From assembly GCA_003222395.1 (NCBI GenBank), contig QHWB01000052.1:310001-374000 (forward strand): 64,000 nucleotides of DNA. Reading direction: 5' to 3'. Shown piece by piece: positions 35,846 through 58,731 of the stretch. Numbering within the stretch: position 1 is the stretch's first letter; each line of letters begins with the position of its first letter. A program made the translations under genes and the position numbers. The DNA is from Acidobacteriota bacterium (GTDB taxonomy: Bacteria > Acidobacteriota > Vicinamibacteria > Vicinamibacterales > CAVVIG01). The notes beneath the pieces were generated by a model that saw only the letters and a program-made list of their open reading frames with translations, was not told the origin of the DNA and did no database searches.

Positions 35846-35862
35846 CGGGTCCGCGGATTGTG

Positions 35863-36033
35863 TCACATCCCGTTAGGGTAGAGGCCAACGTCAATGCTCG
35901 TGAGCAGGCCGGCGGTGCCGACCGTAAACGTCTGTGCGAGACTCCGATCGGCGATGATCGCATTGGTGCGGATGACACAACTTGCGCGTGTGGTCACCGA
36001 CTGGTCGAACACGACCGGATAGGCTTGGGCCAA
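35863..36033 (-). pseudogene. possible fragment of a secreted beta-sandwich protein
   Basis: The minus-strand frame here encodes VVFDQSVTTRASCVIRTN and SLAQTFTVGTAGLLTSIDVGLY before a stop. 'xQTFTVGxxGxLTxIDVxL' is a phrase found near the start of many secreted beta-sandwich (choice-of-anchor type) proteins, which normally continue for 100-150 residues; here it ends at once. No signal peptide or ribosome site is seen. Best read as a decayed fragment; weak evidence. Confidence 0.3.
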
Positions 36034-43146: not shown

Positions 43147-46077
43147 CTAGCGGCGACCGGATCGCATGGAGGCGAGCACGACGTCGAGGTCGTGTCGCGC
43201 GTTGGCGTTGGTGGGATCGAGCTCGAGGGCGCGGCGCAGGTGCGCGATCGCTTCGTCGCGCGCTCCCTCGCTTGCCAGCGCAGCGCCGAGATGCCAGTGC
43301 GTGCTCGCTGAATCCGGCGCGAGGCGCGCTGCCTCGCGAAATTCAGCCACGGCCTGCGCCATGTCGCCCCGCTCCGCGAACGAGATGCCGATGGCATTGT
43401 GCACCTCCGGCGAATCGGGAACGATCGCGCCGAGGTATCGGCTGCCGGCGATCGTCCGCGGCTCGCGTTCGGTGATCCGGCGGACGCGCGCCATCTGAGC
43501 CGGCGACGCCGCATAGGCGAGCCGGAGCAATCCAAGGTACGCGTCCAGCCCGTCGGCGAGCGGCGACGGCCGATCGCCCACGAAGCATCGTGGGCACCAC
43601 GCGGCCACCTGGCTCAAGTCGACGAGCGACGGCGGCACGGCCTCGCCAAGATTCAGCAGGGAGCGGACGCCGTACTCCTGAATCGGCCGATCGTCGGTAA
43701 CCGGATCGATGCCGCGCGTCGCCGACTCGAGCCGCGATGAGGCGCCGACGAACATGCCGGCGATCTCCCGCACGCTGCCGAGATCGATCTTCTCCAGGTC
43801 GCGGCGCACGTCGGGCGCGCGCGCGAGCGCCGTTGCGATCCGCTCGGGCTCGATCTCCACGCGCGGTGAATTCGATCCGATCAGCAGCAGATCGGCCTCG
43901 GCGCCAGAGAGGAGCACCGCGTTCGGGAACACGTCGACGAACGCGCGAACCATCGCGAGCGTCGTGTCGGCTGGCACCTGATACGCCGGCAGCCACTGGC
44001 TCATGAATCCTTTCGCGCTGAGGCGCGTGCGCGCGAGCGCGTAGAACTCCTTCGAATACAGCGCCGCCATCCCGGCGTACCCAATCGGCGGCGGCTCGAG
44101 CGTGACGAGATCGTACGACGACGCCGCCCGCATCTGCAGGTGATGGCGCCCATCGTTGACGTACACCGCCACTCGCGGATCCGCCAGCACGTCGCCGTTG
44201 ACCTCCTTGAAGTAGCCAGCGTGCGCCAGCACGTCGGGCGACAGATCTGCCACGTCGACGCGCGTCACCGATGGATGAAGCGTCGCGGCGTGCGTCGTGT
44301 TGCCGACGCCGAATCCAATCACGAGCACCGACTGCGGCCGCTCCATCGACAGCAGCGGGACGTGCGCGAGCGCACGCATGTACCGCTGGCTGAGCGTCGT
44401 CGTCGCCGACATCGGGTGGCCGTTCGTCAGCAGGCGCCGCCCCTGACCGGGCTGCTCGGTGATCGCGATGATTTCGTTCAGCCCTTCGCTGACGGCGAGC
44501 AGATGCTCGGTGTCGGCGGGCCGCAGCGCGCGCGTGTTGACGTAATCGGATGGAAGGCGCAGCCACAGGGCGAGAGCCGCGCCCGCGATGAACAGCGATG
44601 CGAGTTGTAGCGCGGGCCTTTCAGGCCCGCGTTCGCGGCCCTGCAAGGGCCGCCCCACAATTGTCATCAATGGTAGGACTGCGACCGTGGCGACGATCAT
44701 CAGAATCGTCGCGCTCGTCTGGATGCCGACCACCGGCAGCAGGATGAAGCCTGTCGCAAGCGATCCGCACACCGCGCCGCACGTGTTCGCGAGGTAGAGC
44801 GCGCCGGCGCGGCGGCCAACCGACTGTTCCACGCGCTGGACGATCGCGTTCGCGAGCGGAAACGCGAATCCCATGAGCAGCGCAGGCAGCGCGACCTCGA
44901 TCAGCATCGGCCTCGCGTTGAACCACAGCTCGCCAACCGCGCGCGACCACGCCGACGAGTCGACGCTCAACGCCGCGTCGAAGCTGCGGCCGGCCGCGGC
45001 GAGGAATGCGGGATCGGCGGCGACGATCGCCTCGAGGCGCCTGGCGTCCGCGGCCGTCAAGCCGATCAATGTTGCGGCCACGAACAGGCCCTGCACGACG
45101 ATCAGCCACCTGGCGGGATCGGCGGCGGCCTCACCGTGAGCGCGCCGGTTGAGAAACGCCGACGCGAGCGAGCCGGCGCCGATACCGACGAGAATCACCG
45201 TCAGCAGCAGCGAGAAGACCGATCGCAGTTGGCCCAGCAGAATGGTGAAATGCCGGAACCACAGGATCTCCATGCCCATGGCGGCGCAGCCGGTCATGGC
45301 GAGGGTGGAGGCAACCCACGCGGGTCGGGGACCGCGGATTGCGGATTGCGGATTCGGGATCGTGGATTGATGGCGGACGCGCGATCGCTCGCGGACCGCC
45401 CGTTTATCATGAGACGCTGCCTTCCAATCCGCACTCCGAAATCCGCGATCCGCAACGACAAGCGCTCCGACGCCGGCGACGATGTTGAACGCGACCGCGA
45501 CGAACTGTGTCGCCTGAAGGCCGTACGCCGGCACCAGCAGGAAGTCGGTGAGAAAACATCCGAGCGCCGCGCCGCCGGTGTTCACCGCGTACAGCACCGC
45601 GATGCGACGGCTGCCGATTGCGAAATCGTCCCGCACGAGATGACGGATCAGCAGCGTGAGCGTGCCGCCCATCAGCAGCGTGATCGGCGCCAGCACGATG
45701 AAGGCGATGGCGACGCGGCCGGCGTGCGTCGCGGCTGACAACACGTACCAGCCCGATGGCGCCCGCGAATACGACGAGAGGAGCGCGGACATTCGATCCA
45801 GATGCGGCAGCAGCAGCGAGACACCGAGGCCCAGCGCGGCGATGATCAGTTCGAAGCATCCGTACGCTCGCAGCAGCGAGCCGCGCCGCGCGGCGTATCG
45901 CATGTCTGCCCAGATGCCGGACACATAGCTGCCGACGCCGAGCCCAAGCATGAACACGGCGACGACGAGCGACGCGGAATGGATGGTGTTGCCGAAGACG
46001 TTGCCGAACTGACGGACCCAGACGACCTGGTAAATCAGTCCGCTCAGGCCCGAGCAGAAGAAGAGGAAGTAGACCAA
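43147..46077 (-). CDS. membrane-anchored spermidine-synthase-like protein with TPR tail
   Basis: A 976-residue fusion. Residues 1 to about 510 hold some 12-14 membrane helices of the MFS-like module seen in polytopic spermidine-synthase homologues (LIYQVVWVRQFGNVFGNT at the start is typical). Residues about 550-790 are the SpeE-like Rossmann domain (SVLVIGFGVGNTTHAA; DVLADPRVAVYVNDGR). Residues about 870-970 are TPRs (AIGISFAERGDMAQAVAEF; ALASEGARDEAIAHLR). Real polyamine synthesis is doubtful for this class. The apparent start is a TTG at 46077 with no ribosome site; the inverted octamer array abuts it, so the original start may have been lost. Repeats are embedded in the frame at 45333-45355 and 44612-44630. 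Confidence 0.85.
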   Translation of the reverse strand: MVYFLFFCSGLSGLIYQVVWVRQFGNVFGNTIHSASLVVAVFMLGLGVGSYVSGIWADMRYAARRGSLLRAYGCFELIIAALGLGVSLLLPHLDRMSALLSSYSRAPSGWYVLSAATHAGRVAIAFIVLAPITLLMGGTLTLLIRHLVRDDFAIGSRRIAVLYAVNTGGAALGCFLTDFLLVPAYGLQATQFVAVAFNIVAGVGALVVADRGFRSADWKAASHDKRAVRERSRVRHQSTIPNPQSAIRGPRPAWVASTLAMTGCAAMGMEILWFRHFTILLGQLRSVFSLLLTVILVGIGAGSLASAFLNRRAHGEAAADPARWLIVVQGLFVAATLIGLTAADARRLEAIVAADPAFLAAAGRSFDAALSVDSSAWSRAVGELWFNARPMLIEVALPALLMGFAFPLANAIVQRVEQSVGRRAGALYLANTCGAVCGSLATGFILLPVVGIQTSATILMIVATVAVLPLMTIVGRPLQGRERGPERPALQLASLFIAGAALALWLRLPSDYVNTRALRPADTEHLLAVSEGLNEIIAITEQPGQGRRLLTNGHPMSATTTLSQRYMRALAHVPLLSMERPQSVLVIGFGVGNTTHAATLHPSVTRVDVADLSPDVLAHAGYFKEVNGDVLADPRVAVYVNDGRHHLQMRAASSYDLVTLEPPPIGYAGMAALYSKEFYALARTRLSAKGFMSQWLPAYQVPADTTLAMVRAFVDVFPNAVLLSGAEADLLLIGSNSPRVEIEPERIATALARAPDVRRDLEKIDLGSVREIAGMFVGASSRLESATRGIDPVTDDRPIQEYGVRSLLNLGEAVPPSLVDLSQVAAWCPRCFVGDRPSPLADGLDAYLGLLRLAYAASPAQMARVRRITEREPRTIAGSRYLGAIVPDSPEVHNAIGISFAERGDMAQAVAEFREAARLAPDSASTHWHLGAALASEGARDEAIAHLRRALELDPTNANARHDLDVVLASMRSGRR
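44612..44630. repeat. GGCCT/AGGCC palindrome inside the spermidine-synthase-like gene
   Basis: GCGGGCCT-TTC-AGGCCCGC, a perfect 8-bp stem with a 3-base loop, lies in frame in the segment encoding the linker after a membrane helix (RPLQGRERGPERPALQ). It is the same kind of palindrome as those at 28967-29015 and 39575-39719. Confidence 0.75.
45333..45355 (+). repeat. GCGGATT heptamer repeat inside the spermidine-synthase-like gene
   Basis: Three GCGGATT units in tandem (GCGGATT GCGGATT GCGGATTC) are translated in frame on the minus strand as STIPNPQSAIRGPRP. Related ATCCGC-type units sit at 45423-45458 in the opposite orientation, flanking the loop region VRERSRVRHQ. The insert falls in a hydrophilic loop between membrane helices, where it is tolerated. 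Confidence 0.75.
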
Positions 46078-46080
46078 ATC

Positions 46081-46222
46081 GGGTAATTGGGTAATCGGGT
46101 AATCGGGTAATCGGGTAATCGGGTAATGTAATCGGGAAATTGGGCGGTTGGCTATACTCCGGCTTCGATTACTCGATTACTCGATTACTCGATTACCCAA
46201 TTACCCAATTACCCAATTACCC
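46081..46222. repeat. inverted pair of 8-bp tandem arrays (GGGTAATC / GATTACCC)
   Basis: The left array 46081-46128 has six GGGTAAT(C/T/G) units. The right array has three GATTACTC (46167-46190), one GATTACCC (46191-46198) and three AATTACCC (46199-46222). The two are reverse complements separated by 38 bases, so the whole forms a long hairpin or cruciform. It fills the gap between the NHL gene stop (46234) and the TTG start of the next gene (46077). Confidence 0.92.
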
Positions 46223-46233
46223 GATTTCTGGGA

Positions 46234-47508
46234 TCACGTCCGCGGAACCGGGCGGCCGAGCAGGAACGCAGGATTCGCGCCGGGACGCGGACGATACTTC
46301 TGCGCGCGGCCGCTGTCGACTTCCGCGACGTAGAAGTTGCCGTCCGGGTCGACGCTCAGCCCGTGCACGCCCCACATCCCACCCGGGAAATCGCCCCAGG
46401 TTCCGAACGCGTACAGGAAGTTGCCGTCGAGATCGTATTTCAGGATCTTCGACGTGCCGCGGTCGGCGGCCCAGAGGTGGCGATCGCTCGTGATGATGAA
46501 CAGGTGGATGTCCGACGGCGGCGGACCGAAGCTCCACTCGCGCAGATATTTCCCGTTCTCGTCGAACACCTGGACGCGATGATTCTGCCGATCGTTGACG
46601 AAGAGCTGACGCGTCTGCGGATCGATCGCGATGCCGTGGACGTTGTTGAAGTAGCCAGGCCGCTTCTCGTTCGGCGGGTTCCCCTTCTCGCCCCACGCCG
46701 TCACGTACTTGCCGTTCTTGTCGAACTTCACGACGCGCGTGTTGGCGTAGCCGTCCGCGACGAAGAACGTGCCGTCGGGCAGCCACGCGATGAACGTCGG
46801 CCGGTAGAAATGTCTGTCGTCGGCGGCATGCACGTTCGGTTCGCCGATCGTCTGCAGCAGCCGCTTGCCGTCGTTGCTGAAGATGAAAATCGCGTGGCGG
46901 TAATCGTCGACCACCCACACGCGCTTCTCCGGATCGTACGGGCTGATGTACACCGCATGCGGCCGGCGAAGCATCTTGTCCCACTGCGTCCAGTCCTCGA
47001 CCATGTTCCCGTTCGCGTCGACGACGACGATGCAGTGCTCCCAGCGGAAATCTTCACCGGCTTTGCCGACGTCGGAGTCGTCGCCGACTTTTCCATCGCG
47101 CGTTTCGAGCGCGCCGGGCGGGCTCGTCGACGTCGCATCGCGCCACGGCAGCCGTCCGATCGGGAATTCGATGTTCGGCCCGAGCTGCGGCAGCTTGATC
47201 TGTTTGGGCCGCTCGATGTTCGGCAGTTCGCCGCGCTGCAGGATGAACACGCGGTTCGCGCTCTCCGCGAACACGCTCTGTCCGGCGCCCCACGTCCACT
47301 TCTCATGGCCCGGCAGGCTCGAGATCGGCTTCGGCCAGTTGGCGACGACTTCATAGCCGCCGAAGACGTCCTGCCCGCCCTTCTCGGCCGGCACGGCCGC
47401 GAAGCGGGGATCCTGACGCGATTGTCCTTCGACGAGCGTCATCCGACTTGCGATCACCGATGCCGTCACGATGATGAGCGCGGCGACGATCGAGATGTGC
47501 TTGCGCAT
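46234..47508 (-). CDS. exported NHL-repeat protein (peptidylamidoglycolate-lyase-like fold)
   Basis: A 424-residue protein with a signal peptide (SIVAALIIVTASVIASRM), then NHL repeats of the type VDANGNMVEDWTQWDKML, VWVVDDYRHAIFIFSNDGKR, FFVADGYANTRVVKFDKNGK, LFVNDRQNHRVQVFDENGK, LWAADRGTSKILKYDLDGN and FYVAEVDSGRAQKYRP. This is a six-bladed NHL propeller with an inserted N-terminal region holding EKWTWGAGQ and LPWRDATS. It is the last gene of the nine-gene minus-strand run, 54 bases after the FG-GAP gene. Enzymatic activity cannot be inferred. Confidence 0.87.
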   Translation of the reverse strand: MRKHISIVAALIIVTASVIASRMTLVEGQSRQDPRFAAVPAEKGGQDVFGGYEVVANWPKPISSLPGHEKWTWGAGQSVFAESANRVFILQRGELPNIERPKQIKLPQLGPNIEFPIGRLPWRDATSTSPPGALETRDGKVGDDSDVGKAGEDFRWEHCIVVVDANGNMVEDWTQWDKMLRRPHAVYISPYDPEKRVWVVDDYRHAIFIFSNDGKRLLQTIGEPNVHAADDRHFYRPTFIAWLPDGTFFVADGYANTRVVKFDKNGKYVTAWGEKGNPPNEKRPGYFNNVHGIAIDPQTRQLFVNDRQNHRVQVFDENGKYLREWSFGPPPSDIHLFIITSDRHLWAADRGTSKILKYDLDGNFLYAFGTWGDFPGGMWGVHGLSVDPDGNFYVAEVDSGRAQKYRPRPGANPAFLLGRPVPRT

Positions 47509-47562
47509 GATGCTCCTTCAAGCTCTCACCACGGAGAACACAGAGGACACGCCTCGCAGCGT

Positions 47563-49161
47563 TCACCGAACGAAGACGTAAACCGCGCCGGCCTGCGACA
47601 TCGACGTCCCCTGCTGATTGCCGTTGACGCCTTTCGCGCCGCTCGATTCGAAATGCGCGCCGACCGCCATCGTCCGGCCGTCACGGCTGACCGCGACGGC
47701 GCTGCCGAACTCATCGAACTTTTTCGTGTTCGATCCCTTGAAGTACACCTGCTGCGACCACGTCGTGCCCTGGCGGTTGAAGAGGTACACGGCGCCCGCT
47801 TCGTCGGCGCCCTTGGCGTCCTGTTTGCCGTTGATGCCCTGCGACGCGCCGTCTTCGTTCGGCGCAGAGACCGCGAAGGTATTGCCGTCGCCGCTCAGGT
47901 GAAGATGGATGCCGAACCAGTCGTCCTTGCCGACGTTCGACGCCTTGAAATTCGCCTGCTCGGTCCACGTCGTTCCGTTGCGCACGAACACGTACGCGGC
48001 GCCCGAAGAGTTGTCGTCCGGCGCGTCGACCTTGCCCGAGTGGCCGCTTTGCACCACGTTGATGCCGCCGACCATCGTGTCTTCGTCGAGCGCGCCCGTC
48101 GCGACCGTGTTCCCGTCGTCGCTGATCGCGATCGAGCAGCCCATCGAGTCCTGCGGGTCGCCTTCCTTCGCCTTGAGGTACGCCTGCTGCGTCCAGCTCG
48201 CGCCGCTGCGAACGAACACGTACGCCGCGCCGGTGCCGGCGGCGCGTCGATCGTAGGGTCCGTTGATCTGTCGCGTCGATCCGGCTTCGTCGAACGAACC
48301 GACGGCGATGGTGCTGCTGTCGCCGCTGACCGCGACCGAGTAGCCGAAGAGAAAGTTGCGGCTGGCGTTCGCTGCTTTGAGATACGCCTGCTGCGACCAC
48401 GCGCCTGCGTTGCGAACGAAGACGTACGCCGCGCCCGCGTTCGGCGCCGAATTGTCTTTCTCGTCGCCGTTGACCGTGGTGGCGCCGCTGTCTTCGCCGA
48501 TCGCGCCGGCGACGAGCAGGTTTCCATCGCCGCTGAGGCTGATCGAATAGCCGAACTGATCGCCCTCTTCCGCGTCTCCGGTGTTCGAGGCCTTGATGTA
48601 GGCCTGCTGAGACCACGCCGTGCCGCTCCGAGTGAAGACGTACACCGCGCCCGCATTCGGCATCGAGTTGTCGGCCTGATTGCCGTTGATGCCTGTGGCC
48701 GCGCTGTCTTCGTACGGAGCGGAAACCGCCAGCGTGTTGCCGTCGGCGCTCAGGGCGACGTTGAACCCGAACTGATCGTCCTGATCGGTATTCGAGGCCT
48801 TGATGTACGCCTGCTGCGACCATCCGGCGCCGCCACGCGCGTAAACGTACACCGCACCGGCGCCGAACTTGGAGTGATCGTCCTGTTTGCCGTTGATGCC
48901 GGTGGCGCTGCTCTCTTCCATCTGTGAGCCGACGGCAAGCGTGCTGCCGTCGGCGCTGAGCGCGACGGCGAAGCCGAACTGCGCGCCCTCGCGCGGGTTC
49001 GACGCTTTGACGTATGCCGCCTGCTTCCACGGCGACGCCGTCTTGGAGCTCGACTCGGATGCTCGCGGCGGGCGTGCGGCCGGCTGCTGGCCGTCCGCCG
49101 ACAACGCCGCGGCGCCCGCCAACACGAAGACGAGGCCGACGATTCGGTGAGGCCCGTGCAT
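47563..49161 (-). CDS. exported FG-GAP-repeat protein, seven repeats
   Basis: A 532-residue secreted protein: signal peptide (IVGLVFVLAGAAALSADG), a short Ser/Ala-rich linker, then seven repeats of about 65 residues. Each has (Q/E)QAYxKASN...DxFGxxVALSADGxTLAVGxxxEDSxATGINGxQxD...AGAVYVFxR. The 'SxDGxTLAVG' and 'FGxxVAxS' pieces are FG-GAP/integrin-alpha-type blades, so it should fold as one calcium-binding seven-bladed propeller. No enzyme motif. Its ATG lies directly after the stop of the DUF6152 gene, so translation is coupled. Confidence 0.87.
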   Translation of the reverse strand: MHGPHRIVGLVFVLAGAAALSADGQQPAARPPRASESSSKTASPWKQAAYVKASNPREGAQFGFAVALSADGSTLAVGSQMEESSATGINGKQDDHSKFGAGAVYVYARGGAGWSQQAYIKASNTDQDDQFGFNVALSADGNTLAVSAPYEDSAATGINGNQADNSMPNAGAVYVFTRSGTAWSQQAYIKASNTGDAEEGDQFGYSISLSGDGNLLVAGAIGEDSGATTVNGDEKDNSAPNAGAAYVFVRNAGAWSQQAYLKAANASRNFLFGYSVAVSGDSSTIAVGSFDEAGSTRQINGPYDRRAAGTGAAYVFVRSGASWTQQAYLKAKEGDPQDSMGCSIAISDDGNTVATGALDEDTMVGGINVVQSGHSGKVDAPDDNSSGAAYVFVRNGTTWTEQANFKASNVGKDDWFGIHLHLSGDGNTFAVSAPNEDGASQGINGKQDAKGADEAGAVYLFNRQGTTWSQQVYFKGSNTKKFDEFGSAVAVSRDGRTMAVGAHFESSGAKGVNGNQQGTSMSQAGAVYVFVR

Positions 49162-49608
49162 TTACCGGCCGCCCGTTCTCGCCGGCGCGCACGGACCCGG
49201 CTGATTCGGCTGACCCGGATCGTTACCGCGGTAGATCTCTTTGCCGTTCGCGTCGAAGACGCGCGAGTTCTCCGAGAGCGTCATGTACGGCGACCCGTTC
49301 TTCAGGCGGCGTCCGACCATCGTCACCGTGTCGCCGACCTTGATGACGTCCTGGGTCCAGCACCAGCCTTTCAACTGCGTCGCGGAGCCCGCCTCGCCGC
49401 GCCAGCGCACGACCTTGTCGGCGTCCTCTTTCACGTCGACGACGACGATCGAGTGCGGGTTGATCAGCTGCAGCTCCACGACCGTGCCTTTGACGGTCGT
49501 CAGCTTGTCCTCGTAGCGACCGGCGTCGCCGTGGTGCGCGAGAACCGCGGCCGACATCGCCGCGAGGCACACGCCGACGAGTGAGACGAGCGAAGATTTG
49601 ATGTCCAT
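49162..49608 (-). CDS. DUF6152 family exported protein (second copy)
   Basis: A 148-residue protein: signal peptide (LVSLVGVCLAAMSAAVLAHH), then GTVVELQLINPHSIVVVDV, WRGEAGSATQLKGWCWT and GDTVTMVGRRLKNGSPYM. The 'AHHG', 'NPHS' and 'GDTVTxxGxxxxNGSP' elements identify DUF6152. Unlike the copy at 17608 it has no DUF6644 gene beside it, but sits between the tandem hydrolase (stop two bases upstream of its start) and the FG-GAP gene (starts right after its stop). Start follows GAGGA by eight bases. Function unknown. Confidence 0.82.
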   Translation of the reverse strand: MDIKSSLVSLVGVCLAAMSAAVLAHHGDAGRYEDKLTTVKGTVVELQLINPHSIVVVDVKEDADKVVRWRGEAGSATQLKGWCWTQDVIKVGDTVTMVGRRLKNGSPYMTLSENSRVFDANGKEIYRGNDPGQPNQPGPCAPARTGGR

Positions 49609-49610
49609 GA

Positions 49611-51980
49611 TCAGGTCCTCTGCACGTTCTTTTGAAGCCAGCTCACGATGAATTTGATGATCTCGTCGCTGTTCTTTTCGAGCATCATCATGTGACTGTT
49701 GCCGCTGATGCCGACAGTCTCGAGCCGGATGAAGTCGGTCTTCACGCCCGCCTGATTGAGCCATTTCGGAATGCACGGATCGTACACGCGATGATACGTG
49801 CCGCTGCCGGAAATCGACAGCACCGGAATGTGCTGCCAGTTGACGAGTTTCTTCGCCGGCTCCTCCTGCAACCAGCAGCGCACTTCGTCCGGCCGCTCGG
49901 ATTTGTCCTCGAGGTGGACTTTCAGGTCGGCGGGGTTCGCGGCGGGCGGATCGAAGAGGAAGCGACTCGTGGTGAGCCCCCACGATCGCGGGTTCCTCGG
50001 CCCGGCGGTAACCTTTGCCGTGTCGGCGGATCCGATCTGCGGACCACCCGGCTCCACCGTGACCATGGCTCTCACCAGCTTCGGACGCGCTTCCGTCACG
50101 TCGAAGCCGACGCCGCCGCCCTGCGAGTGCGTCAGCAGGATTACCGGCGTGCCGATCATCTCGACGAGCGCGATGCCCGCGTCGCGCGCCAGCTCGGTCG
50201 ACGCGCCGGCAAACTGCACCTGCGACCTGATGAACGTATCGAAGATCGGATCGCCCATCTTGCCGCTGCCCGGCCACTGCGTGTGGTTCATCTTGAGCGG
50301 GAAGTCGCCGCGCTCGCGCGCGTTGGTCCAGATGCGTTCGAGCTCCAGCGCGGTGCGAATACCGATCGCGCCGTCGATCGGTTTGCCGTCGGGTCCCGGC
50401 AGCGGCACGTACGCCGAGCGCCCGCGCGCCGGGTAGTCGACCATGTACAGCACGTATCCCTGCTGCGCGAGGTAGTACGCCCAGCCTGGCCGTCCGTCCG
50501 GCGTCTGCTGCCAGTCGACGCCGGTCTGGCCGTTGCCGTGGAAGAACACGATCGGCTCGGCGTGACGAATCTGTTTGGGTATCCACACCTCGGTATACAT
50601 CGCGCCGCGCATCACTTCCTTGCCGCGTTCGCCCCAGTACGCGCCGCCCGCGTAGAAGAATCCTTTGCGCGCGATGTTCTCGGTGGAGAACGTCGGAATC
50701 GATTTCGGCGGCATTGCTTTGGATGGTGACGCTCCGGCCGGCGCTCGCGCGGTCTTCGCGAGCCATCTGCCGATGTAGCTCGCGATGTCGGCGCTGTTCT
50801 TCTCGAGCATCATCATGTGGCCGTTGCCGGTGAGTCCGGCTTTCTCCATCTCGATGTACTCGGTCGCCACGCCGGCCTGCGTCAGCCATTTCGCGAGGCA
50901 GTGATCGTAGACGCGGTGATAGCCGCCTTCGCCGTTGAGGAACAGCACCGGCACGTTCTGCAGGTTTTTCAACTTCCGCGCCGGCTCCTGCTGAACGTAG
51001 CACGCGACTTTTCCCGGCTCCGCCCTGCCATCAAGCTCGGTCTTCAACTCGGATGCGCTCGCGATCGGCGGGTCGTACGCAATCGCGCTGTTGGCGACGC
51101 CCCAGCTCAGTCCGCCGCCGTCGGTGTACGCAACCTTCGCCGCGTCGACGCCTTTGATCGGCGGCGCGGCCGGTTCGACGGTCACGATCGCCTTGACGGC
51201 GTTCGGCCGTGCGTCGGCGATCAGCCACCCGAAGGCGCCGCCCTGTGAATGCGTCAGGAGAATCACGGGAGTGCCGATCGCGTCGACGAGCGCGACGTTC
51301 GCGTCGCGCGTCGACGTTTCCTGACGCGCGCCGGCGAGGAACTGCACCTGCGTTTTCGTGAACGCGTCGAAAATCGGATCGCCGATCCGTCCGCTGCCCG
51401 GCCACTGCATGTGCTTCTTGGCCTGGGGAAAGTCGCCGCGCGCCGCCGAGGCGGTGAACGTCTCTTCGAGGTTCGGCGCCGTGCGGATCGTCAGGTTCGA
51501 TCGCTCCGCCGTGCCGTCGACGCCCGGCACGTACTGCGATCGGCCGCGCGCCGGAAAATCCTCGAGATAGACGACGTAGCCCATCTCGAGGAAGTTGTAG
51601 GCCCAGCCCGGACGGCCGTCGGCTGTCTGCAGCCAGTCGACGCCGGTCTGCCCGGCGCCGTGCAGGAACACGATCGGGTAGGGCGAGCGAATCTGCTTCG
51701 GAACCATCACTTCGACGTACATCGCGCCGCCCATCGTCGATTCCCTGTCGGGTCCCAGCTCGCCGACGTACTTGCCGCCCGCGTAGAAGAACGCGTGGCG
51801 CGCAACCTTGTCGAGCGGGACCGTGCGAATCGCGTCGGACGGCGACGCCTTCGACGCGCCGGACTGAGCGATCGATGGACGAGCGAGGCCGACGAGAAAC
51901 AGCAGGACGAGACTGAACGCGCGCGATCGTCGATTACGCCGAGCGGCGAGGGCCGCGAGGGACAGGCTCCGCGTCTTCAT
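49611..51980 (-). CDS. exported tandem alpha/beta-hydrolase (two fused copies)
   Basis: A 789-residue secreted protein made of two homologous hydrolase domains, residues about 55-405 and 435-789. Each begins FFYAGGxYxGE, has an oxyanion segment (HGAGQTGVDW; HGNGQTGVDW), a nucleophile motif THSQGG (Ser near 246 and 618) and a His in GNGHMMMLEKN or GNSHMMMLEKN near its end. Single-copy homologues are about 350-400 residues, so this is a fused in-frame duplication. Both Ser and His survive, implying two active sites. Probably an esterase or lactonase acting in the periplasm. It follows the amidohydrolase by 27 bases in the run behind receptor 3. Confidence 0.88.
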   Translation of the reverse strand: MKTRSLSLAALAARRNRRSRAFSLVLLFLVGLARPSIAQSGASKASPSDAIRTVPLDKVARHAFFYAGGKYVGELGPDRESTMGGAMYVEVMVPKQIRSPYPIVFLHGAGQTGVDWLQTADGRPGWAYNFLEMGYVVYLEDFPARGRSQYVPGVDGTAERSNLTIRTAPNLEETFTASAARGDFPQAKKHMQWPGSGRIGDPIFDAFTKTQVQFLAGARQETSTRDANVALVDAIGTPVILLTHSQGGAFGWLIADARPNAVKAIVTVEPAAPPIKGVDAAKVAYTDGGGLSWGVANSAIAYDPPIASASELKTELDGRAEPGKVACYVQQEPARKLKNLQNVPVLFLNGEGGYHRVYDHCLAKWLTQAGVATEYIEMEKAGLTGNGHMMMLEKNSADIASYIGRWLAKTARAPAGASPSKAMPPKSIPTFSTENIARKGFFYAGGAYWGERGKEVMRGAMYTEVWIPKQIRHAEPIVFFHGNGQTGVDWQQTPDGRPGWAYYLAQQGYVLYMVDYPARGRSAYVPLPGPDGKPIDGAIGIRTALELERIWTNARERGDFPLKMNHTQWPGSGKMGDPIFDTFIRSQVQFAGASTELARDAGIALVEMIGTPVILLTHSQGGGVGFDVTEARPKLVRAMVTVEPGGPQIGSADTAKVTAGPRNPRSWGLTTSRFLFDPPAANPADLKVHLEDKSERPDEVRCWLQEEPAKKLVNWQHIPVLSISGSGTYHRVYDPCIPKWLNQAGVKTDFIRLETVGISGNSHMMMLEKNSDEIIKFIVSWLQKNVQRT

Positions 51981-52007
51981 GACGGTTCCCCTTCTGTTTT
52001 CGCGGGA

Positions 52008-53075
52008 TTATGTCGATCCGAGCCGCAGCAGCTTGACGAGCGTGCCGCCGAGGATCGCTTCCTTGTCCGCGTCGCTCAGGAACGACGCGCGCAGGATGAA
52101 GTCGACGCCGACAGGCCACGGAAACGGCATGTCGGTTCCGTAGACGATCTGACGCGCGCCCATCTCGGCGACGAGATGCCGCAGTCCTTCCTCGCGAAAC
52201 ACCATCGAGTCGACCAGGATCTGATCGCGGAAGTATTCGCCGAACTTGCGCTTCATGACGGCGCAGTTCTGCGGATCGCGAGTGCACGCCGCTTCCGACC
52301 GGCCGAGATACGACGGCAGGTAGCCGCCGGCGTGCGCCGCGCAGACGCGCAGCCCGGGAAACTTGTCGAGCGTCCCGTCGAAAATCAGATGCGAGAGAAA
52401 GACCGTCGTCTCGAGCGGATTGCCGATGGTGTTGCCCAATCCGCCGCGGCCGCGCAACCGCTGGTTCTGCGTCGTGCCCGGCGCGTTGCGCGGGTGCATG
52501 AACACGAGCACGCCGAGCTCCTGCGCTTTCGCCCAGAACGGATCGAATTTCGGCGACGACAGCTCCTCGCCTTCGACGCTGCCGCCGATGGCGGCACCGC
52601 GCAGCCCGAGCCTTTTGATTCCGTGTTCCAGCTGCTCGGCCGCCAGATCGGGAAACTGCAGCGACACCGTCGCGAGCCCGACGAACCGATCCGGATGCGC
52701 CGCGCACCACGCGGAGAGCTTCTCGTTCTCGACGGCCACGATCCGGCACGCGAGCTCGCGTTCGGCCGAGTACCAGAACGCGTTGACGCTCAAGACCTGC
52801 ACGTCGATCCCCTGCTCGTCGATCGCTTTGAGGCGTTCGGCGCCGAGCACGAGGCCGCCTTCCTGATCGCCGCCGCCCCCTCTCCCGCCGCCCGCGGGCG
52901 CGAGCTTCGTACCTTTAATGATGTCGCCGACCTCGGGCACCGACAGGTGGCCGTGGACGTCGACCACCTTGATGCGCCGGCGGCCGACGGAAACTTCGCG
53001 CCGTGGCGGCGTCTGGATGAAGAAGCCGGCGGCGGCGCCGGCGCCGGTCTTGACGAATGCTCTGCGGGTCAGCAT
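52008..53075 (-). CDS. Tat-exported amidohydrolase (ACMSD-like, amidohydrolase 2 family)
   Basis: A 355-residue protein with a twin-arginine signal (LTRRAFVKTGAGAAAGF). The metal motif VDVHGHL (His41, His43), a strand with HPRNAPG, CAAHAGGYLPS and YGTDMPFPW (the last Asp being the usual catalytic residue) mark a TIM-barrel amidohydrolase 2 enzyme, related to decarboxylases and hydrolases of aromatic acids. A Gly-rich loop (PAGGGRGGGGDQ) follows the first strand. ATG 53075 follows GGAGG. It is 128 bases downstream of receptor 3 and just upstream of the tandem hydrolase, suggesting joint processing of an imported compound. Confidence 0.87.
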   Translation of the reverse strand: MLTRRAFVKTGAGAAAGFFIQTPPRREVSVGRRRIKVVDVHGHLSVPEVGDIIKGTKLAPAGGGRGGGGDQEGGLVLGAERLKAIDEQGIDVQVLSVNAFWYSAERELACRIVAVENEKLSAWCAAHPDRFVGLATVSLQFPDLAAEQLEHGIKRLGLRGAAIGGSVEGEELSSPKFDPFWAKAQELGVLVFMHPRNAPGTTQNQRLRGRGGLGNTIGNPLETTVFLSHLIFDGTLDKFPGLRVCAAHAGGYLPSYLGRSEAACTRDPQNCAVMKRKFGEYFRDQILVDSMVFREEGLRHLVAEMGARQIVYGTDMPFPWPVGVDFILRASFLSDADKEAILGGTLVKLLRLGST

Positions 53076-53203
53076 GGCGGCTCCTCCGATTACGGCGCGA
53101 GCGACGCGAGGTACGCCGCCGTCGCCAGCCCTCCTGATACAGCGCGGGCCGGGCGGATTGCGTCCACCCGGCCCTGCGACATGCCTGACTCTGAACGTCT
53201 GTT

Positions 53204-56083
53204 TCAGAACGTCACGCGAAATCCCAGCTGCAGCGTGCGCGGCGCGAACGAGAGATTCGTGCTCGGCTGCGGCTGGCCGTACTGTGGATTGGTGACCCGC
53301 GTCTCGTACGCGCCGTAGTTCGCGCGATTGAAGACGTTGAACAGTTCCACGTAGCCGCCGGCTGTCGCATGGCCGTGGAGCGGCACCCGTTCCTGCAGCC
53401 GCATGTCGACGCGATGGATCGGCGCGAACACGAAACTCTCGCGCGGGATGATCGTGCCGTCCGGCAGCAGCCGATCGACGCTGGTGATCTGAAGCCCGCG
53501 CGCGTCGCAGCCGCAGGTCGCTTGCGTGCGCTGCCCCGAGCCGTAGAAGTAGATGCCGCTCAGCTGCAGACCGTAACCGACCTGCCAGATGCCGTTGAAC
53601 ACGAGCCGATGACGCTGATCGGTTTCCGCGAACGACCGTTCGCCGCCGGCGTCGTTCGTCACCGCGAATGGCACTTCGGCGAGACCGCTGATCGGCGCCG
53701 GGTCGCGGTCCCATAGGCCCGACAGCGTGTACGTGAGCGAACCCTGCCAGCGATGGCTCATCCGCTTCGTCAAGTGCGTCTGCAGGCCGTGATAATCGGA
53801 CATGCCGGTCATCGGGAACATGCCGACGACCCCGTAGAGCGGAAACGCGCGGCGGCTCGCGATCGAATACGGATAGGCAATGCCGGTGTCCGGATTGAAC
53901 GTCACGTTGACGTTGTCCTGGATCGATTTCTCGTCGCGGCTCTTCGTGTTCACGTAGTCGATTTCGATCGCCGTATCGTTGGTCATCTGCCGCGCGACGC
54001 CGATCGAGCTCTGCCAGCTGTGCGGCACGTGCGCGTACGCCGGCGGCGGCGCCTGCTCCTGCAGATCGCGCAGGAGACATCCGGGCGCGTTGTTGACGTT
54101 ACAGAACCGCTGCAGCGCCTGGTCGTAAGTCGGCAGCGGCCCGTTGAACGGGTTCGCCGCAAAGTCCGACCGCGTGCGATCGTTGTCGACGGCAATCACC
54201 GCGATCGTCAACGGGCTCATCGGCCACAGCACGTTCGTGTTGAGGATGTCGTTGTAGTACAGGCCGGCGCCGCCGCGCAGCACCGTCCGTTCGTTGAATT
54301 GATACGCGAAGCCGAATCGCGGCTGAATGTTGTTCGCGTCCTGCGGCCGACCCGCGTGCTCGAACGGCTCGAAGGTCACGTCCTGCGCGAACGCGTTCCA
54401 GATGAGGTCGTACCGCAGACCGAGGTTCAGCGTGAGGCGGTTGCTGACCTTCCAGTCGTCCTGCGCCCACGCGCCGTACTTCCACATGTGAATCGGAGTC
54501 AGAAAGGCGGACGAATCCGACACGCCGACGGTGTAGCGCGTCGTGATCGATGAGATCGCCGCAAGATTCCACGTATCCGCATTGAACGGATCGGGGAAGA
54601 GATCCTCGATGTTCGCGGGAACCGGCCCGCCGTTCGCCGTGATGACGCCGCCGCACCGGTTGCAGTTGCGCGTCTCGTCGAGGAGGTGCAGGTACTCGCC
54701 GCCGGCCTTCAGATCGTGGCGCCCCGCCGCGTCGTACGACAAGGTGAAGTCGTCGCGCAGCGTGTACGCGTTCTGATTGCGGTAGCGCGGCAGGTTGTTG
54801 TTGCGGTTGAACGAGAAGCCCCTGAAGTTGATGACGGGGCCGTCGGTCGTGATCCCGTTGCCGGCCTGCCAGTGCTGCGACCACTTCGTGAGGCTCTGCT
54901 GGTCGATGCCGTAGGAAGCGTAGCCGTATCTAAACTCGTTGACCGCGCGAGCGCTGATGACCTGCGTGAACTGACCGATGACGTCGGTGTTGTGCTCGCG
55001 GTTGCTGTTGGTTGCCGAGGGATGGTTGCCGGTTCCAGCTCCGAACGGTTCGAAGAGGCCTGAATGGGCGACCTTCCCCATCAGGCGCATCGTCGACGAC
55101 AGCTGTTGATCGAGCCGCACGCCGCCAAGCTTCACGTTTCTGATGCCGTCCAACTCGACGTTGAACCGCGGATACGGCGTCGTCCAGATCGAGGTCAGCG
55201 GCTGGCGCTCGTATTCATAGTTGCCGAAGAAATGCAGCTTGTTCTTGACGATCGGGCCGCCCAGCGTGCCGCTGATCTGCTGATTCTTGTAGGGGAGGAC
55301 GCGTTTCAGCACCGGGTCGGCCGCGTTCCACGCGCTGTCGCGGAAGTTGCCGACGAGCGAACCGCCCAGCAGGTTCGTTCCCGATTTCGTGACGACGTTC
55401 ACCTGCACGCCCGTGGAGCGTCCCTGCGTCGCGTCGAAGCGGTTCGAGATGAACTGGAACTCCGCGATCGAATCGTTGCTGTACCGCGACTGATTGCCCG
55501 TACCGAGATTTGCAGTGACCTGCTGGCCGTCGACGTTCAACTGGAACTCGCGCACGTCGACTCGATCCTGAACCGGCAGCGATCCCTGCGCGTTGGTCCT
55601 GTTTCCCGGCGCGAGCAGCGCGAGCGACATCCAGTTGCGTCCCTGCGACGGCAGTTCCTGCACCTGGCGCTGATCGATGTTGCCGCCCAGGCTCGACGTC
55701 GTCGTTTCGATGAGCGGCGACTGCGCGGTGACGACGACCGATTCCTGCACTGAAGCGGGCGCCATCTGCAGATTGATCACCGCCGTCTGGCCAACGAGCA
55801 GCTCCAGGCCGGTTCGCGTGAGCGTGCTGAACCCAGCGAGTTCCGCGGTCAACCTGTAGACGCCGATGCGCACGGGTATGCGGTAGACCCCGCGCTGATC
55901 GGTCGTCGCTTCAAAGCTGTTGCCGGTGGCTTCGAGGACCGCTCGAAGCGTGACGCCAGGCAGAATCGCGCCGGTGGAATCGGTCACCGTGCCGCTGAAC
56001 ACTGCCTCCTGCGCGAACGCCGCGATGGGCGCCGCTACGATTGCGCACACACAGATCAACCGCCGGACGACGCTCGATGTCAT
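53204..56083 (-). CDS. Oar-like TonB-dependent receptor 3
   Basis: A 959-residue receptor: signal peptide (ICVCAIVAAPIAAFAQ), carboxypeptidase-regulatory-like domain (EAVFSGTVTDSTGAILPGV; DQRGVYRIPVRIGVYRL), plug (GGNIDQRQVQELPSQGRNWM) and barrel ending RTLQLGFRVTF. Sequence is close to receptors 1 and 2. ATG 56083 follows GAGGGAG by five bases. A cupredoxin gene ends 90 bases upstream and an amidohydrolase, hydrolase and DUF6152 gene follow downstream on the same strand, so this receptor is the most clearly placed inside a functional locus. Substrate unknown. Confidence 0.93.
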   Translation of the reverse strand: MTSSVVRRLICVCAIVAAPIAAFAQEAVFSGTVTDSTGAILPGVTLRAVLEATGNSFEATTDQRGVYRIPVRIGVYRLTAELAGFSTLTRTGLELLVGQTAVINLQMAPASVQESVVVTAQSPLIETTTSSLGGNIDQRQVQELPSQGRNWMSLALLAPGNRTNAQGSLPVQDRVDVREFQLNVDGQQVTANLGTGNQSRYSNDSIAEFQFISNRFDATQGRSTGVQVNVVTKSGTNLLGGSLVGNFRDSAWNAADPVLKRVLPYKNQQISGTLGGPIVKNKLHFFGNYEYERQPLTSIWTTPYPRFNVELDGIRNVKLGGVRLDQQLSSTMRLMGKVAHSGLFEPFGAGTGNHPSATNSNREHNTDVIGQFTQVISARAVNEFRYGYASYGIDQQSLTKWSQHWQAGNGITTDGPVINFRGFSFNRNNNLPRYRNQNAYTLRDDFTLSYDAAGRHDLKAGGEYLHLLDETRNCNRCGGVITANGGPVPANIEDLFPDPFNADTWNLAAISSITTRYTVGVSDSSAFLTPIHMWKYGAWAQDDWKVSNRLTLNLGLRYDLIWNAFAQDVTFEPFEHAGRPQDANNIQPRFGFAYQFNERTVLRGGAGLYYNDILNTNVLWPMSPLTIAVIAVDNDRTRSDFAANPFNGPLPTYDQALQRFCNVNNAPGCLLRDLQEQAPPPAYAHVPHSWQSSIGVARQMTNDTAIEIDYVNTKSRDEKSIQDNVNVTFNPDTGIAYPYSIASRRAFPLYGVVGMFPMTGMSDYHGLQTHLTKRMSHRWQGSLTYTLSGLWDRDPAPISGLAEVPFAVTNDAGGERSFAETDQRHRLVFNGIWQVGYGLQLSGIYFYGSGQRTQATCGCDARGLQITSVDRLLPDGTIIPRESFVFAPIHRVDMRLQERVPLHGHATAGGYVELFNVFNRANYGAYETRVTNPQYGQPQPSTNLSFAPRTLQLGFRVTF

Positions 56084-56173
56084 ATGGGCTCCCTCTGAGG
56101 ACAATGAATCCCAACGACGCGGGCCCGAAATGAAGCCGAAATGGAGCGCATTCTACACCGCCGCTTCCCTCTG

Positions 56174-56908
56174 TCAACGTTGCGGATCCGGTTTTTCGCT
56201 TCCGGTGTAGATGAATTCGACGACTGCTGTGTTGCCGGCCGTGACGTCGACGCTCTGCGTCAACGTCCCGTACCGTTCGTGCCATGCACGGATCGTGTGG
56301 CGGCCGGGAGGAATCGCGTCGATCGTGAAGACTCCTGCGCCGCTGCTGACGGTGAAGTACGGGTGATCAACGACCCCGACGAACGCGGTCATCCAGCGGT
56401 GGACGTCGCAGGCGATGTGCAGCATGACCTCTTCGTGCTTCAACTCGACCTTGTAGACCATTCCCCTCAACGGCTGGCCGATGTTGAAGTCGTTCGACGC
56501 TTTGGAGAGCCCGTGCACGTCGTGCAGCGTTGGATCGCTGTTCCGGAACTCGATCGTCTGGCCGACGCGCGCGCCGACGACACGGGGCCGGTACATGCAG
56601 CGCTGCTGATCGATCGTCACGACGCCGGCGGGACGCGGAGCGTCCGGAAACGACCCCGCGAGGTGCACGAACGCGTTGGCGAGCCCGCCATCGTCGCTCG
56701 TCACGACCGCGTCCTGCACGATGCGCTTGCCGCGCGCCGCCTCTGCGCAGCGCGGGTCCATACCCATCCGGATGATCGGATTGCCCGGGGGCGGAGCGGT
56801 CAGCCGCACACGTCCCTGGATGGATCCGCCGGCGGCGGTCGACGGCTGCCAAGCGACGACCGGCACCACGGCGCACACGAGCGTGAGCGACAAGAGCCAG
56901 CGCATCAT
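56174..56908 (-). CDS. secreted cupredoxin-like protein with regulatory-like tail (paralogue of 7087 gene)
   Basis: A 244-residue protein with a signal peptide (LLSLTLVCAVVPVVAW). Candidate type-1 copper ligands are His in TLHDVHG and Cys, His, Met in IACDVHRWMTAF. An N-terminal insertion holds GMDPRCAEAARGKRI. The end, from FTVSSGAGVFTIDAIPPG, is the beta-sandwich tail also seen in the 7087 protein. Its ATG overlaps the stop of the cytochrome gene (ATGA), so expression is coupled: a likely periplasmic electron-transfer pair. Start ATG 56908 is chosen because of that overlap. Confidence 0.8.
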   Translation of the reverse strand: MMRWLLSLTLVCAVVPVVAWQPSTAAGGSIQGRVRLTAPPPGNPIIRMGMDPRCAEAARGKRIVQDAVVTSDDGGLANAFVHLAGSFPDAPRPAGVVTIDQQRCMYRPRVVGARVGQTIEFRNSDPTLHDVHGLSKASNDFNIGQPLRGMVYKVELKHEEVMLHIACDVHRWMTAFVGVVDHPYFTVSSGAGVFTIDAIPPGRHTIRAWHERYGTLTQSVDVTAGNTAVVEFIYTGSEKPDPQR

Positions 56909-57516
56909 TTCTTGTTCTTCGGATACCAGTACTTCAGGTGGCAGTGCTCGCATGCCGCGTCGATCGCGTCGCCCGAGTCGAGCAGGGCTTCAGCGTCTTT
57001 CTTTTCCGTCGCGTTCAGCGCCCGTGTCGCCGCGGCGACGAGCTCCTGCGCGCGCGCGATCCACGTCGCGCGATCCGATGCGACCAGCTTCGCGATCTGA
57101 TCCGGCGTCAGCTCGATCGCGCTCGCTTTTTCGGCGACCGACGTCGAAGACTCGGCGAGCGCATCGGCGGCGGCGATGCTGGCCGGGCTCGCGATGCGGC
57201 GGCCCGGCATCATGAGCAGATTGCCCGCCTCGACCAGCGTCAGCGCGTTGTTGCGGACCACGGCCCACTCGTGATCGTTTTTCGGCGTCTTCGTTTCCTG
57301 TCCTCTGATCGAAATCGTGGTCGACACCGCCTCGAAGACGACGTCGGAGCTCGGATCGACCATCGCGAGCATCAAATCCTGGACCGTCGCGACGGGCCGG
57401 CCGCCGGGACGCCGCGTCGATGCGATTGACTGAGGCGCCTGCTGAGCCGACACGACGCTCACCGAGCAGCACATGACGGCGATGCCAACCCGGTATCCGA
57501 ACCGACTCGTGGCCAT
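56905..57516 (-). CDS. exported monoheme cytochrome c
   Basis: A 203-residue secreted protein with a signal peptide (AVMCCSVSVVSAQQ) and one heme motif CEHCH near the C-terminus (ACEHCHLKYWYPKNKK). Before it are amphipathic helices (VQDLMLAMVDPSSDVVFEA; LVEAGNLLMMPGRRI; ATWIARAQELVAAATRAL), the four-helix arrangement of cytochrome c-prime-like proteins with a C-terminal CxxCH. ATG 57516 gives the best signal peptide. It follows the NHL gene by 36 bases and overlaps the cupredoxin start by four bases. Confidence 0.82.
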   Translation of the reverse strand: MATSRFGYRVGIAVMCCSVSVVSAQQAPQSIASTRRPGGRPVATVQDLMLAMVDPSSDVVFEAVSTTISIRGQETKTPKNDHEWAVVRNNALTLVEAGNLLMMPGRRIASPASIAAADALAESSTSVAEKASAIELTPDQIAKLVASDRATWIARAQELVAAATRALNATEKKDAEALLDSGDAIDAACEHCHLKYWYPKNKK

Positions 57517-57552
57517 CAGCGCTCCTGAAACGCGTCGGCGTCGACGATGCAC

Positions 57553-58731
57553 TTACCCCCTCGTTCCTTTCCTCGGGGCAATCATCTTCGTGATGCGTCC
57601 AACGCTCGTGTCGCCGGTATAGAGGTTGCCTTCCGAATCCATGACCATGTAGTTGGATTCGACGAACTGGCCCTCGCCTCTGCCGGGCCCGTTACCGATC
57701 GCGCCGAGCACGTTGCCATCCCAGTCTATTTTGAAGATCTGGCCATCCTGACCGGTCGCCAGCCATAACTGCTTGCGGGGATCCACATAGAGAGCGCACG
57801 TGAGGTTCCTCATTTGAATCGTTTTGAGGAACTTGCCATGTGCGTCGTAGACGACGAGTCGATATTCCTCCCGATCGGCGATATACACGTTGCCGTTGTC
57901 GGGGTTGATGGCAATCCCGTGGACCATGCTGAAGTGCCCCTGGCCGGCATGGTTGCCAAACCATTGATCGATGAATCTGCCGTTCTTATCGAGATGCAGG
58001 ACGCGCGCGGCGCCGATCTTGTTCGTCGGAGATTTGTCGGTGTCGTTGGGACTCTCGTTCGCGTGACCCTCGCCGATATAGACATCGCCGTTTGCCGCGA
58101 ACGCCAGGTGTAGCGGCTGCCAGAGAAGCCTCTGTCCCTTGGCTTCGTCCCAATCACCCCTCTGGTCCTTCACGCCGACGGTCATCAGCAGTTTTCCCTC
58201 GGGACTGAGTTTCATCACGGTGTCGCCGTTCTCGTCGCAGATCCAGATGTTGTCCTCTGCGTCGATGGTCATTCCGTGCGCCTTGTTCTGATGCCCGATG
58301 ACCTCGTCGCCGATCGCGCGAATCAGCGTGTGATTCCGGTCGAACTCGAACAACTGCGGTTTGCCCGCGGCGTTGCGCTGAAACGCGAACAGATGTCCTC
58401 TTGAATTGATCGCGACGGCCGAGACACCGCCGCCGCCTTCGGGCAACGCGAACGGGTACGCGTAGGTGAATCCCAGATCGGGTGTGCGCACTTCATGAGA
58501 AATGATGTTGCGCTCTCTTCCCCACGCGCAGATGGGCGAATGCGTGCACGGTTCCGCGCCGCTGTTCCCCTGGATGACCTCGCCTCGCCCTGCGAGTCTT
58601 CCGCCGCCTTGTGATTGCTGATCCAGAGCCGATGTCTGCGGCCGCCCGGCTCGCGCGTCAGCCGGAGGAAATGCCGGCGGTGAAGCAAAGAGTGCGAGTG
58701 CGATCACGCCGGCGAAAATGTGCCCTCTCAT
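57553..58731 (-). CDS. exported NHL-repeat protein (third in window)
   Basis: A 392-residue protein: signal peptide (GVIALALFASPPAFPPADA), a Gly-rich linker with CTHSPICAW, then six NHL-type repeats including VSAVAINSRGHLFAFQRN, MTIDAEDNIWICDENGD, LAFAANGDVYIGEGHAN, IAINPDNGNVYIADREE and MVMDSEGNLYTGDTSVGRI. A six-bladed propeller is expected. The two cysteines in the linker may form a disulfide. Start ATG 58731 follows AGGAGG. First gene of the nine-gene minus-strand run; it is divergent from the cupin gene with 159 bases between them. Confidence 0.85.
   Translation of the reverse strand: MRGHIFAGVIALALFASPPAFPPADARAGRPQTSALDQQSQGGGRLAGRGEVIQGNSGAEPCTHSPICAWGRERNIISHEVRTPDLGFTYAYPFALPEGGGGVSAVAINSRGHLFAFQRNAAGKPQLFEFDRNHTLIRAIGDEVIGHQNKAHGMTIDAEDNIWICDENGDTVMKLSPEGKLLMTVGVKDQRGDWDEAKGQRLLWQPLHLAFAANGDVYIGEGHANESPNDTDKSPTNKIGAARVLHLDKNGRFIDQWFGNHAGQGHFSMVHGIAINPDNGNVYIADREEYRLVVYDAHGKFLKTIQMRNLTCALYVDPRKQLWLATGQDGQIFKIDWDGNVLGAIGNGPGRGEGQFVESNYMVMDSEGNLYTGDTSVGRITKMIAPRKGTRG

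Follow-up and report, generated by a model that had tools for sequence, protein, structure and literature searches.

Reading a nine-gene run in an Acidobacteriota genome as a junction, with a candidate module of paired esterases and a PAL-like propeller

The stretch of DNA analyzed here (“the window”) comprises 64,000 nucleotides (nt) of contig QHWB01000052.1 from an Acidobacteriota bacterium of the order Vicinamibacterales with a 7.74-Mb genome, and on its minus strand nine genes follow one another from 58731 to 46234. A sequence-only reading had taken these nine for a single, self-contained locus for uptake and processing. We judge it slightly better than an even bet that the run is instead a junction of separately inherited pieces, and that its lower half (53075 to about 36515, i.e., extending beyond the run) represents a copy of an extracytoplasmic catabolic module of patchy distribution that would join ester hydrolysis to C–N bond cleavage of the PAL type. 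The chemistry of PAL (peptidyl-alpha-hydroxyglycine amidating lyase, EC 4.3.2.5) is familiar from peptide amidation in eukaryotes.

The one-strand arrangement itself was borne out: all nine open reading frames (ORFs), called stop-to-stop, were confirmed, and their Pfam domains are largely those that had been named. These genes, and the further genes that enter the argument, are as follows:

57553..58731, minus strand: gene 1, NHL propeller (Pfam NHL)
56905..57516, minus strand: gene 2, c-type cytochrome, probably class II (cytochrome c'-like), from a CEHCH motif and the predicted fold, without a Pfam match
56174..56908, minus strand: gene 3, cupredoxin-like protein with a CarboxypepD_reg-like end (slightly under the Pfam cut-off), overlapping gene 2 by 4 nt
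53204..56083, minus strand: gene 4, TonB-dependent receptor (Pfam CarboxypepD_reg, OMP_b-brl_4, and TonB barrel)
52008..53075, minus strand: gene 5, Tat-exported amidohydrolase resembling ACMSD and gamma-resorcylate decarboxylase (Pfam Amidohydro_2), module member
49611..51980, minus strand: gene 6, fused double esterase resembling SulE and esterase 713 (two Pfam alpha/beta-hydrolase stretches), module core
49162..49608, minus strand: gene 7, exported DUF6152 protein (Pfam DUF6152), occasional module member
47563..49161, minus strand: gene 8, exported FG-GAP_2 repeat protein (seven Pfam FG-GAP_2 stretches), occasional module member
46234..47508, minus strand: gene 9, PAL-like NHL propeller and probable C–N lyase (Pfam NHL; match to 3fvz), module core
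43147..46077, minus strand: gene 10, membrane protein with a spermidine-synthase domain and TPR repeats (Pfam), module member outside the nine-gene run
39742..41046, minus strand: MFS carrier (best NCBIfam match an aromatic acid/H+ symport family, below cut-off), module member outside the nine-gene run
36515..39397, minus strand: TonB-dependent receptor (CarboxypepD_reg/OMP_b-brl_4), best window match of the module-side receptors in relatives

The case for a module lies in what recurs around the double esterase in other genomes, where gene labels are best BLASTP matches to window proteins in uncurated stop-to-stop ORFs, and where loci were fetched for best matches only, many of them on short contigs. 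Double-esterase matches occur in 18 of the 149 genomes of the order, our own included (E <= 1e-20). Across the seven closest loci (L031–L037, of which L032 is a 5.3-kb contig), the spermidine-synthase/TPR membrane protein and the MFS carrier each recur in six, the amidohydrolase (in one to three copies) and the gene-9 NHL propeller each in five, and a receptor of the 36515–39397 type in three; neither gene 2 nor gene 3 occurs in any of the seven. Two more distant NHL genes stand in place of the gene-9 type in L033, and L035 has only a partial, distant one. Other neighbors in relatives include an ABC ATPase, a 3-hydroxyisobutyrate-dehydrogenase-like protein, a metallo-beta-lactamase, a kelch protein, and an amidase.

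A collection with one genome per species (84,980 species), scanned by pattern, gave 39 esterase loci, several on the same contigs as loci from the order genomes, and with depositor titles that may be wrong (L075 is titled Acidimicrobiia, L072 and L076 Sulfopaludibacter, and the other fused loci are Acidobacteria-labeled). In 24 of the 39, an NHL gene is found no more than 600 nt from an esterase domain, and in 20 of those 24 it is of the gene-9 type and on the same strand. The same pairing takes another form in 11 loci labeled Gammaproteobacteria, Rhodospirillaceae, or Proteobacteria, where the order is esterase B, gene-9-type NHL, esterase A, with the esterases as separate genes. This NHL subtype is itself rare, matching 10 of 297 genomes of the phylum, our own included (E <= 1e-100). 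Some partners appear at few loci: DUF6152 homologues near the esterase in L076, L085, L102, and L103, joined by an FG-GAP homologue in L076 and L085, and an amidase with a GSSSGS loop in L074, L078, L086, and L088, in both phyla. On the other hand, none of the 39 loci (E <= 1e-10) has the cytochrome of gene 2 or the cupredoxin of gene 3, and in none is gene 4 the best-matching receptor. For two genomes of the order (G001 and G077), five gene-9-type NHL genes each are listed, some adjoining metallo-beta-lactamase proteins (L034, L036, L166–L173).

Several features of these loci weigh against a tight module. No NHL gene lies within 600 nt of the esterase in 15 of the 39. Some of these 15 end at contig edges, and in L074 and L078 an NHL gene lies about 2–4.6 kb off, beyond a methyltransferase/helicase-type (restriction-modification-like) gene or an ORF related to it; yet L075, L080–L083, L090, L099–L101, L106, and L108 have no close NHL gene despite kilobases of sequence on at least one side. 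L073, L105, and L107 contain NHL genes labeled as nearest gene 1 (25–31% identity), and of the two NHL genes in L073, both divergent, one has an incomplete site. The amidohydrolase, which runs in the same direction as the esterase in the window, is opposed to it in all five of the closest loci that have it. Many loci lack one or another of the variable partners (the amidohydrolase, the DUF6152 and FG-GAP proteins, the amidase, and the receptor, each of them absent repeatedly), and other c-type cytochromes do lie near the module in L071 and L076.

At the core of the module, gene 6 encodes 789 residues in two fused SulE/esterase-713-like domains, with PDB sequence matches to 1qlw (E 5.5e-23) and to SulE entries (E 4e-19 to 3e-17). 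Its two Ser-Glu-His triads (S245/E269/H388 and S619/E643/H763) are invariant in nine of nine aligned sequences, and in both halves they sit in the same motifs (HSQ for Ser, EP for Glu, GN(G/S)H for His). For SulE, a putative signal peptide, the triad Ser209/Glu232/His333, and a nucleophile outside the usual GxSxG are described, along with de-esterification of sulfonylureas; the same source has esterase 713 hydrolyzing a methyl ester (PMC10356948). Gene 6 shares the alpha/beta-hydrolase domain and the triad with SulE (8IVE and others) and esterase 713 (1QLW), but differs in that two domains are joined in one protein or, elsewhere, are encoded by two genes flanking an NHL gene. In a tree of 55 domains, which took in nine fused proteins and left out those of L077, L079, and L080–L083 and pieces under 250 residues, the first fused half groups with A genes and the second with B genes, each fork supported at 100/99. 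As the two halves fall into two old paralogue clades, the duplication looks older than the fusion; consistent with this, the halves of the window protein are 56% identical to one another, and the first averages 69% identity to A genes versus 54% to B genes. The double esterase of L084 and L038 appears to have been fused independently, since in L084 it is the first half that groups with B-type domains. Spread of the module by lateral transfer was considered and is not supported: A-type domains divide by phylum, except for one Actinomycetota-labeled record, and the patchiness may therefore reflect loss.

The second core member, gene 9, is the one on which the proposed chemistry depends. By sequence it matches PAL (3fvz) at E 7e-26, first among enzymes, and by structure the predicted model (pLDDT 83.5) has 3fvz at Foldseek rank 1 and first in VIA-align (Z 30.7, 304 residues, rmsd 3.0), followed by Thin (Z 28.2). 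Six residues (R92, H184, Y254, H291, R307, and H382) are invariant in 22 sequences. The catalytic dyad of human PAL is given as Tyr651/Arg703 (PMC10303134), and the enzyme is described as zinc-dependent and as releasing glyoxylate (PMC6529398). In our reading of the alignment, Y254 and R307, which align with the DGY and DRE residues of 3fvz, would correspond to the dyad positions. H184 and H291 align to His of 3fvz, and H382 and R92 are matched by motif and by the NHL-protein alignment only. The three histidines we take to be likely counterparts of the three zinc-binding His of PAL. Gene 9 has the NHL propeller and the Tyr/Arg dyad, and probably the His positions, in common with PAL, and differs from it in being bacterial, in standing alone within an esterase module, in the lack of a complete PHM among the genomes searched, and in a calcium Asp that is not kept. 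These sequence and model comparisons suggest that gene 9 is probably an enzyme; of the “ligand-binding propellers” proposed earlier, this one, the second NHL protein, probably does more than bind.

That assignment meets several objections. The NHL region of Thin, a non-enzyme, outscores PAL by sequence (E 6e-29), also in a profile search. At what we take to be the position of the calcium-ligand Asp, after the last His of rat PAL, the residue is Gly in 21 of the 22 sequences and Ala in one. PAL acts downstream of the copper hydroxylase PHM. The PHM partner domain PF01082 was found in none of the seven genomes searched (the control was also silent), and no complete PHM was found in them; partial PF03712 matches pass the cut-off in two of the seven, three of these matches being in our own genome, outside the window. 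Further, the complete PAL-site pattern is present in many other NHL proteins of the same genome, which has 46 NHL repeat matches, so the pattern alone does not fix the reaction.

The best-surviving alternative accepts the module but takes the propeller for a lactonase, an arylesterase, or a binding protein, such that the pathway would be one of ordinary ester and lactone degradation. The beta-propeller lactonase RPA3624 (Z 24.7) and DFPase (Z 24.0) do resemble the gene-9 model, and the best sequence match is the non-enzyme Thin. Against these stand the first rank of PAL by fold and, among enzymes, by sequence, together with the invariance of the Tyr/Arg dyad and the likely His ligands, and we consider this alternative unlikely, if well worth keeping in view. 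Two other comparisons were dropped. The methylguanidine lyase MgdL was rejected as a bacterial precedent for PAL, the two being described as without sequence homology (PMC12508155), and the NCBIfam family ScyF was rejected for both NHL proteins, its match falling far below cut-off. A variant site pattern, RHHHRE (site Tyr to His, last His to Glu), is present in L054 (two copies), L056, and L060 of our own genome and also in L105, and may be a second type of site.

The best PDB matches of the amidohydrolase are ACMSD and related decarboxylases (E about 9e-33), and H41, H43, H194, H248, and D315 are invariant in 16 sequences; it shares the metal-site pattern (HxH, H, H, D) of the ACMSD, gamma-resorcylate, and 5-carboxyvanillate decarboxylases, of which we presume the HxH, His, and Asp to be ACMSD-type metal ligands, and is unlike them in its Tat-type signal. 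As the best match reaches just 117 bits, the substrate cannot be read off. For the receptors beside the module in L073 (a fragment), L075, L076, and L079, the 36515–39397 receptor has the top bit score in four of four and gene 4 comes second in four of four, though by identity gene 4 is slightly higher for the L073 fragment. The candidacy of gene 4 as module receptor is thereby weakened: it is second-best each time, and its membership is unsupported yet possible. The Oar-like receptor that had been made part of the system is indeed a TonB receptor, but the module receptors of relatives match the one at 36515–39397 somewhat better. In placing an outer-membrane receptor beside exported hydrolases, the module is analogous to SusCD-type polysaccharide utilization loci; unlike them, it has a receptor of the CarboxypepD_reg/OMP_b-brl_4 type, and no SusD or glycoside hydrolase was found among the window proteins scanned with Pfam.

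Two genes adjoining this region may belong to a wider catabolic island:

35555..35866, minus strand: DUF1330 protein (Pfam), possibly part of the wider island, with a 70% homologue in L166
34268..35536, plus strand: isopropylmalate/homocitrate synthase-like (HMGL-type) enzyme, possibly part of the wider island, with an 82% identical copy in L166

In L166 both are found together with a receptor and a pair of gene-9-type NHL genes, and in L174 a 91% identical M24 protein and a 67% identical 2-hydroxyacid dehydrogenase accompany a gene-9-type NHL gene at the contig end; the window counterparts of the L166 and L174 genes are 34268–35536, 35555–35866, 30135–31436, and 29148–30128. The dehydrogenases come near phosphoglycerate dehydrogenase/glyoxylate reductase and, in L033, threonate dehydrogenase/tartronate-semialdehyde reductase (NCBIfam, all below curated cut-offs), families that fit, and do not by themselves show, a glyoxylate-like product. 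The stretch 25931–31436 holds M24, 2-hydroxyacid dehydrogenase, zinc alcohol dehydrogenase, HbpS-like, and cytochrome genes, and in L141 this set recurs at 75–97% identity in one stretch with a gene-2/gene-3 pair.

From gene content, recurrence, intact catalytic residues, and predicted folds we infer a pathway—every reaction, the order of the steps, and their location included—that might run as follows. A small ester- and amide-like compound would enter through the TonB receptor at 36515–39397. In the periplasm, the two fused SulE-like domains would hydrolyze its ester groups to leave a free carboxylate, beside which the PAL-like propeller would cut a C–N bond (hydroxyglycine-type chemistry), yielding a glyoxylate-like oxoacid and an amide. 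The Tat-exported metal enzyme may then decarboxylate or hydrolyze one of the products, the MFS carrier would bring in the resulting acid, and cytoplasmic dehydrogenases and the condensing enzyme would consume what is delivered. As genes 5, 6, and 9 recur together, and an outer-membrane receptor accompanies them in some loci, a role in uptake and processing is plausible for these three (and, at few loci, for genes 7 and 8); as a description of the whole nine-gene run it did not hold.

The upper half of the run tells a different story. Gene 2 has one CEHCH motif, a C-terminal CXXCH whose C189, C192, and H193 are invariant in 16 sequences, and its predicted fold is helical. The best PDB chains are haem four-helix cytochromes, although at Z 10.4–13.6 they lie near the level common for helical bundles, and the matches include non-haem fusions, with a weak best Foldseek E of 0.0075; motif and model together suggest a class II cytochrome c (cytochrome c'-like). 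In gene 3, H129, H132, C167, H170, and M173 are kept in 13 sequences, the residues expected of a type-1 copper site, which the protein may thus form. Gene 2 has matches in 81 and gene 3 in 133 of the 149 order genomes, our own included. Of 20 loci fetched, 13 have them side by side on one strand, a figure that gives no rate, the loci having been chosen for carrying either gene. The redox pair that had been assigned to the same system is thus a separate conserved pair, found at none of the 39 esterase loci. A gene-2 relative does adjoin a gene-9-type NHL gene in L140 and L156, which counts against a clean separation; with the cytochromes near the module in L071 and L076, it leaves room for a redox partner. 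Relatives of gene 1 at 58–87% identity occur in 15 further genomes, and one more genome has a fragment. In none of these 16 genomes do they share a contig with a listed gene-2 match (two list no such match, and the contigs are fragmentary, so this is no proof), and the neighborhood of the relative in L178 has no gene 2, 3, or 4. The site pattern of gene 1, RHHHRN, does not keep the PAL Tyr and one His. Gene 1 does not appear linked to the module. Diverging from gene 1 is a plus-strand CarboxypepD_reg and cupin protein (58891–59661). A second gene-3 homologue, again with a CarboxypepD_reg-like end, lies at 7087–7824, and beyond it an ORF of 2748 residues (8009–16255) matches bacterial Ig-like and HYDIN/CFAP65-type Ig domains.

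Signals within the run, and one pattern beside it, are these:

56150..56177, minus strand: sigma70-like promoter TTGACA-16-TAGAAT (11/12 consensus matches), upstream of gene 4
53134..53206, minus strand: gene 4 stop codon plus 70 nt with a strong hairpin (−36.2 kcal/mol, z −3.4), without a T run
46081..46222, strand not assigned: two opposed octamer arrays GGGTAATY (sequence pattern), in the gene 9/gene 10 interval

The promoter-like site, 67 nt upstream of the gene 4 start, is the only one with at least 11 of 12 matches in the 64 kb, both strands counted, and a site of that quality occurs in 3% of 200 simulated windows; at a loose threshold the scan gave 3 sites versus 2.0 expected in 17.5 kb and 5 versus 8.4 in the whole window. 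The z of the hairpin comes from 100 single-base shuffles, which keep single-base but not dinucleotide content, and the next lowest of ten gene ends reaches −1.6. A scan for consensus terminators with T runs found 12 versus 12.0 expected. Taken together, the promoter-like site and the hairpin hint at two or more transcription units within the run, and the hairpin possibly marks the end of one. The GGGTAATY arrays (46081–46120 and 46191–46222) stand apart from this question: the genome has 69 exact matches to their three-unit pattern, overlaps counted, versus 0 for a backwards-read control, and at several places the pattern forms paired opposed arms some tens of bases apart.

These observations bear on the idea of one nine-gene operon, i.e., a self-contained importer with two hydrolases, a redox pair, and ligand-binding propellers, which we now regard as improbable. 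The run does lie on a single strand with short gaps: from gene 1 to gene 9 the spacing at preferred starts is 36, −4, 90, 128, 27, 2, 0, and 54 nt, so that of the 0–128 range claimed before, the upper bound held and the lower gave way to the 4-nt overlap of genes 2 and 3. Export-type N-termini run throughout as had been claimed, with a hydrophobic N-terminal stretch in eight of nine products by a crude hydropathy test; the amidohydrolase has an RRxF motif of the Tat type that all 16 sequences keep. By codon-position GC, a crude filter, seven of the nine ORFs are among the matches listed; genes 5 and 7 are not among them because their stop-to-stop ORFs begin far upstream, and their coding status was set by Pfam domains. 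The gene-2 relatives beside gene-9-type NHL genes in L140 and L156 also speak for a single unit. However, long same-strand runs are frequent in bacteria, and here a tenth gene on the same strand begins 156 nt past gene 9. The nine-gene order was found in none of the loci examined (many on short contigs), genes 2 and 3 are conserved on their own, a promoter-like site and a terminator-like hairpin lie inside the run, and conserved partners lie outside it, so the interval 46234–58731 is half inside and half outside the module. It is just as doubtful that we are seeing a loose, shuffled pool of extracytoplasmic genes usual in the order (receptors, propellers, DUF6152), with recurrence as a composition effect: the genome is NHL-rich and several families do recur in unrelated loci, but the esterase pair flanks one rare NHL subtype in the same order in the 11 proteobacterial loci.

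No description of this combination was found among the titles and abstract openings listed, in a literature with few subscription journals covered. The reading of the run as a junction moves the locus to study to about 36515–53075, in place of 46234–58731. A broader proposal, which we advance only tentatively, is that an exported pathway, present in two or more phyla and built from paired esterases, a PAL-type lyase, and a nearby amidase or Tat decarboxylase, would degrade an N-acyl-alpha-hydroxyglycine-like (carbinolamide) ester as a nutrient. If true, PAL chemistry would extend beyond peptide-hormone amidation into catabolism, and PAL-type C–N cleavage would be put to catabolic use in bacteria, through a defined set of enzymes.

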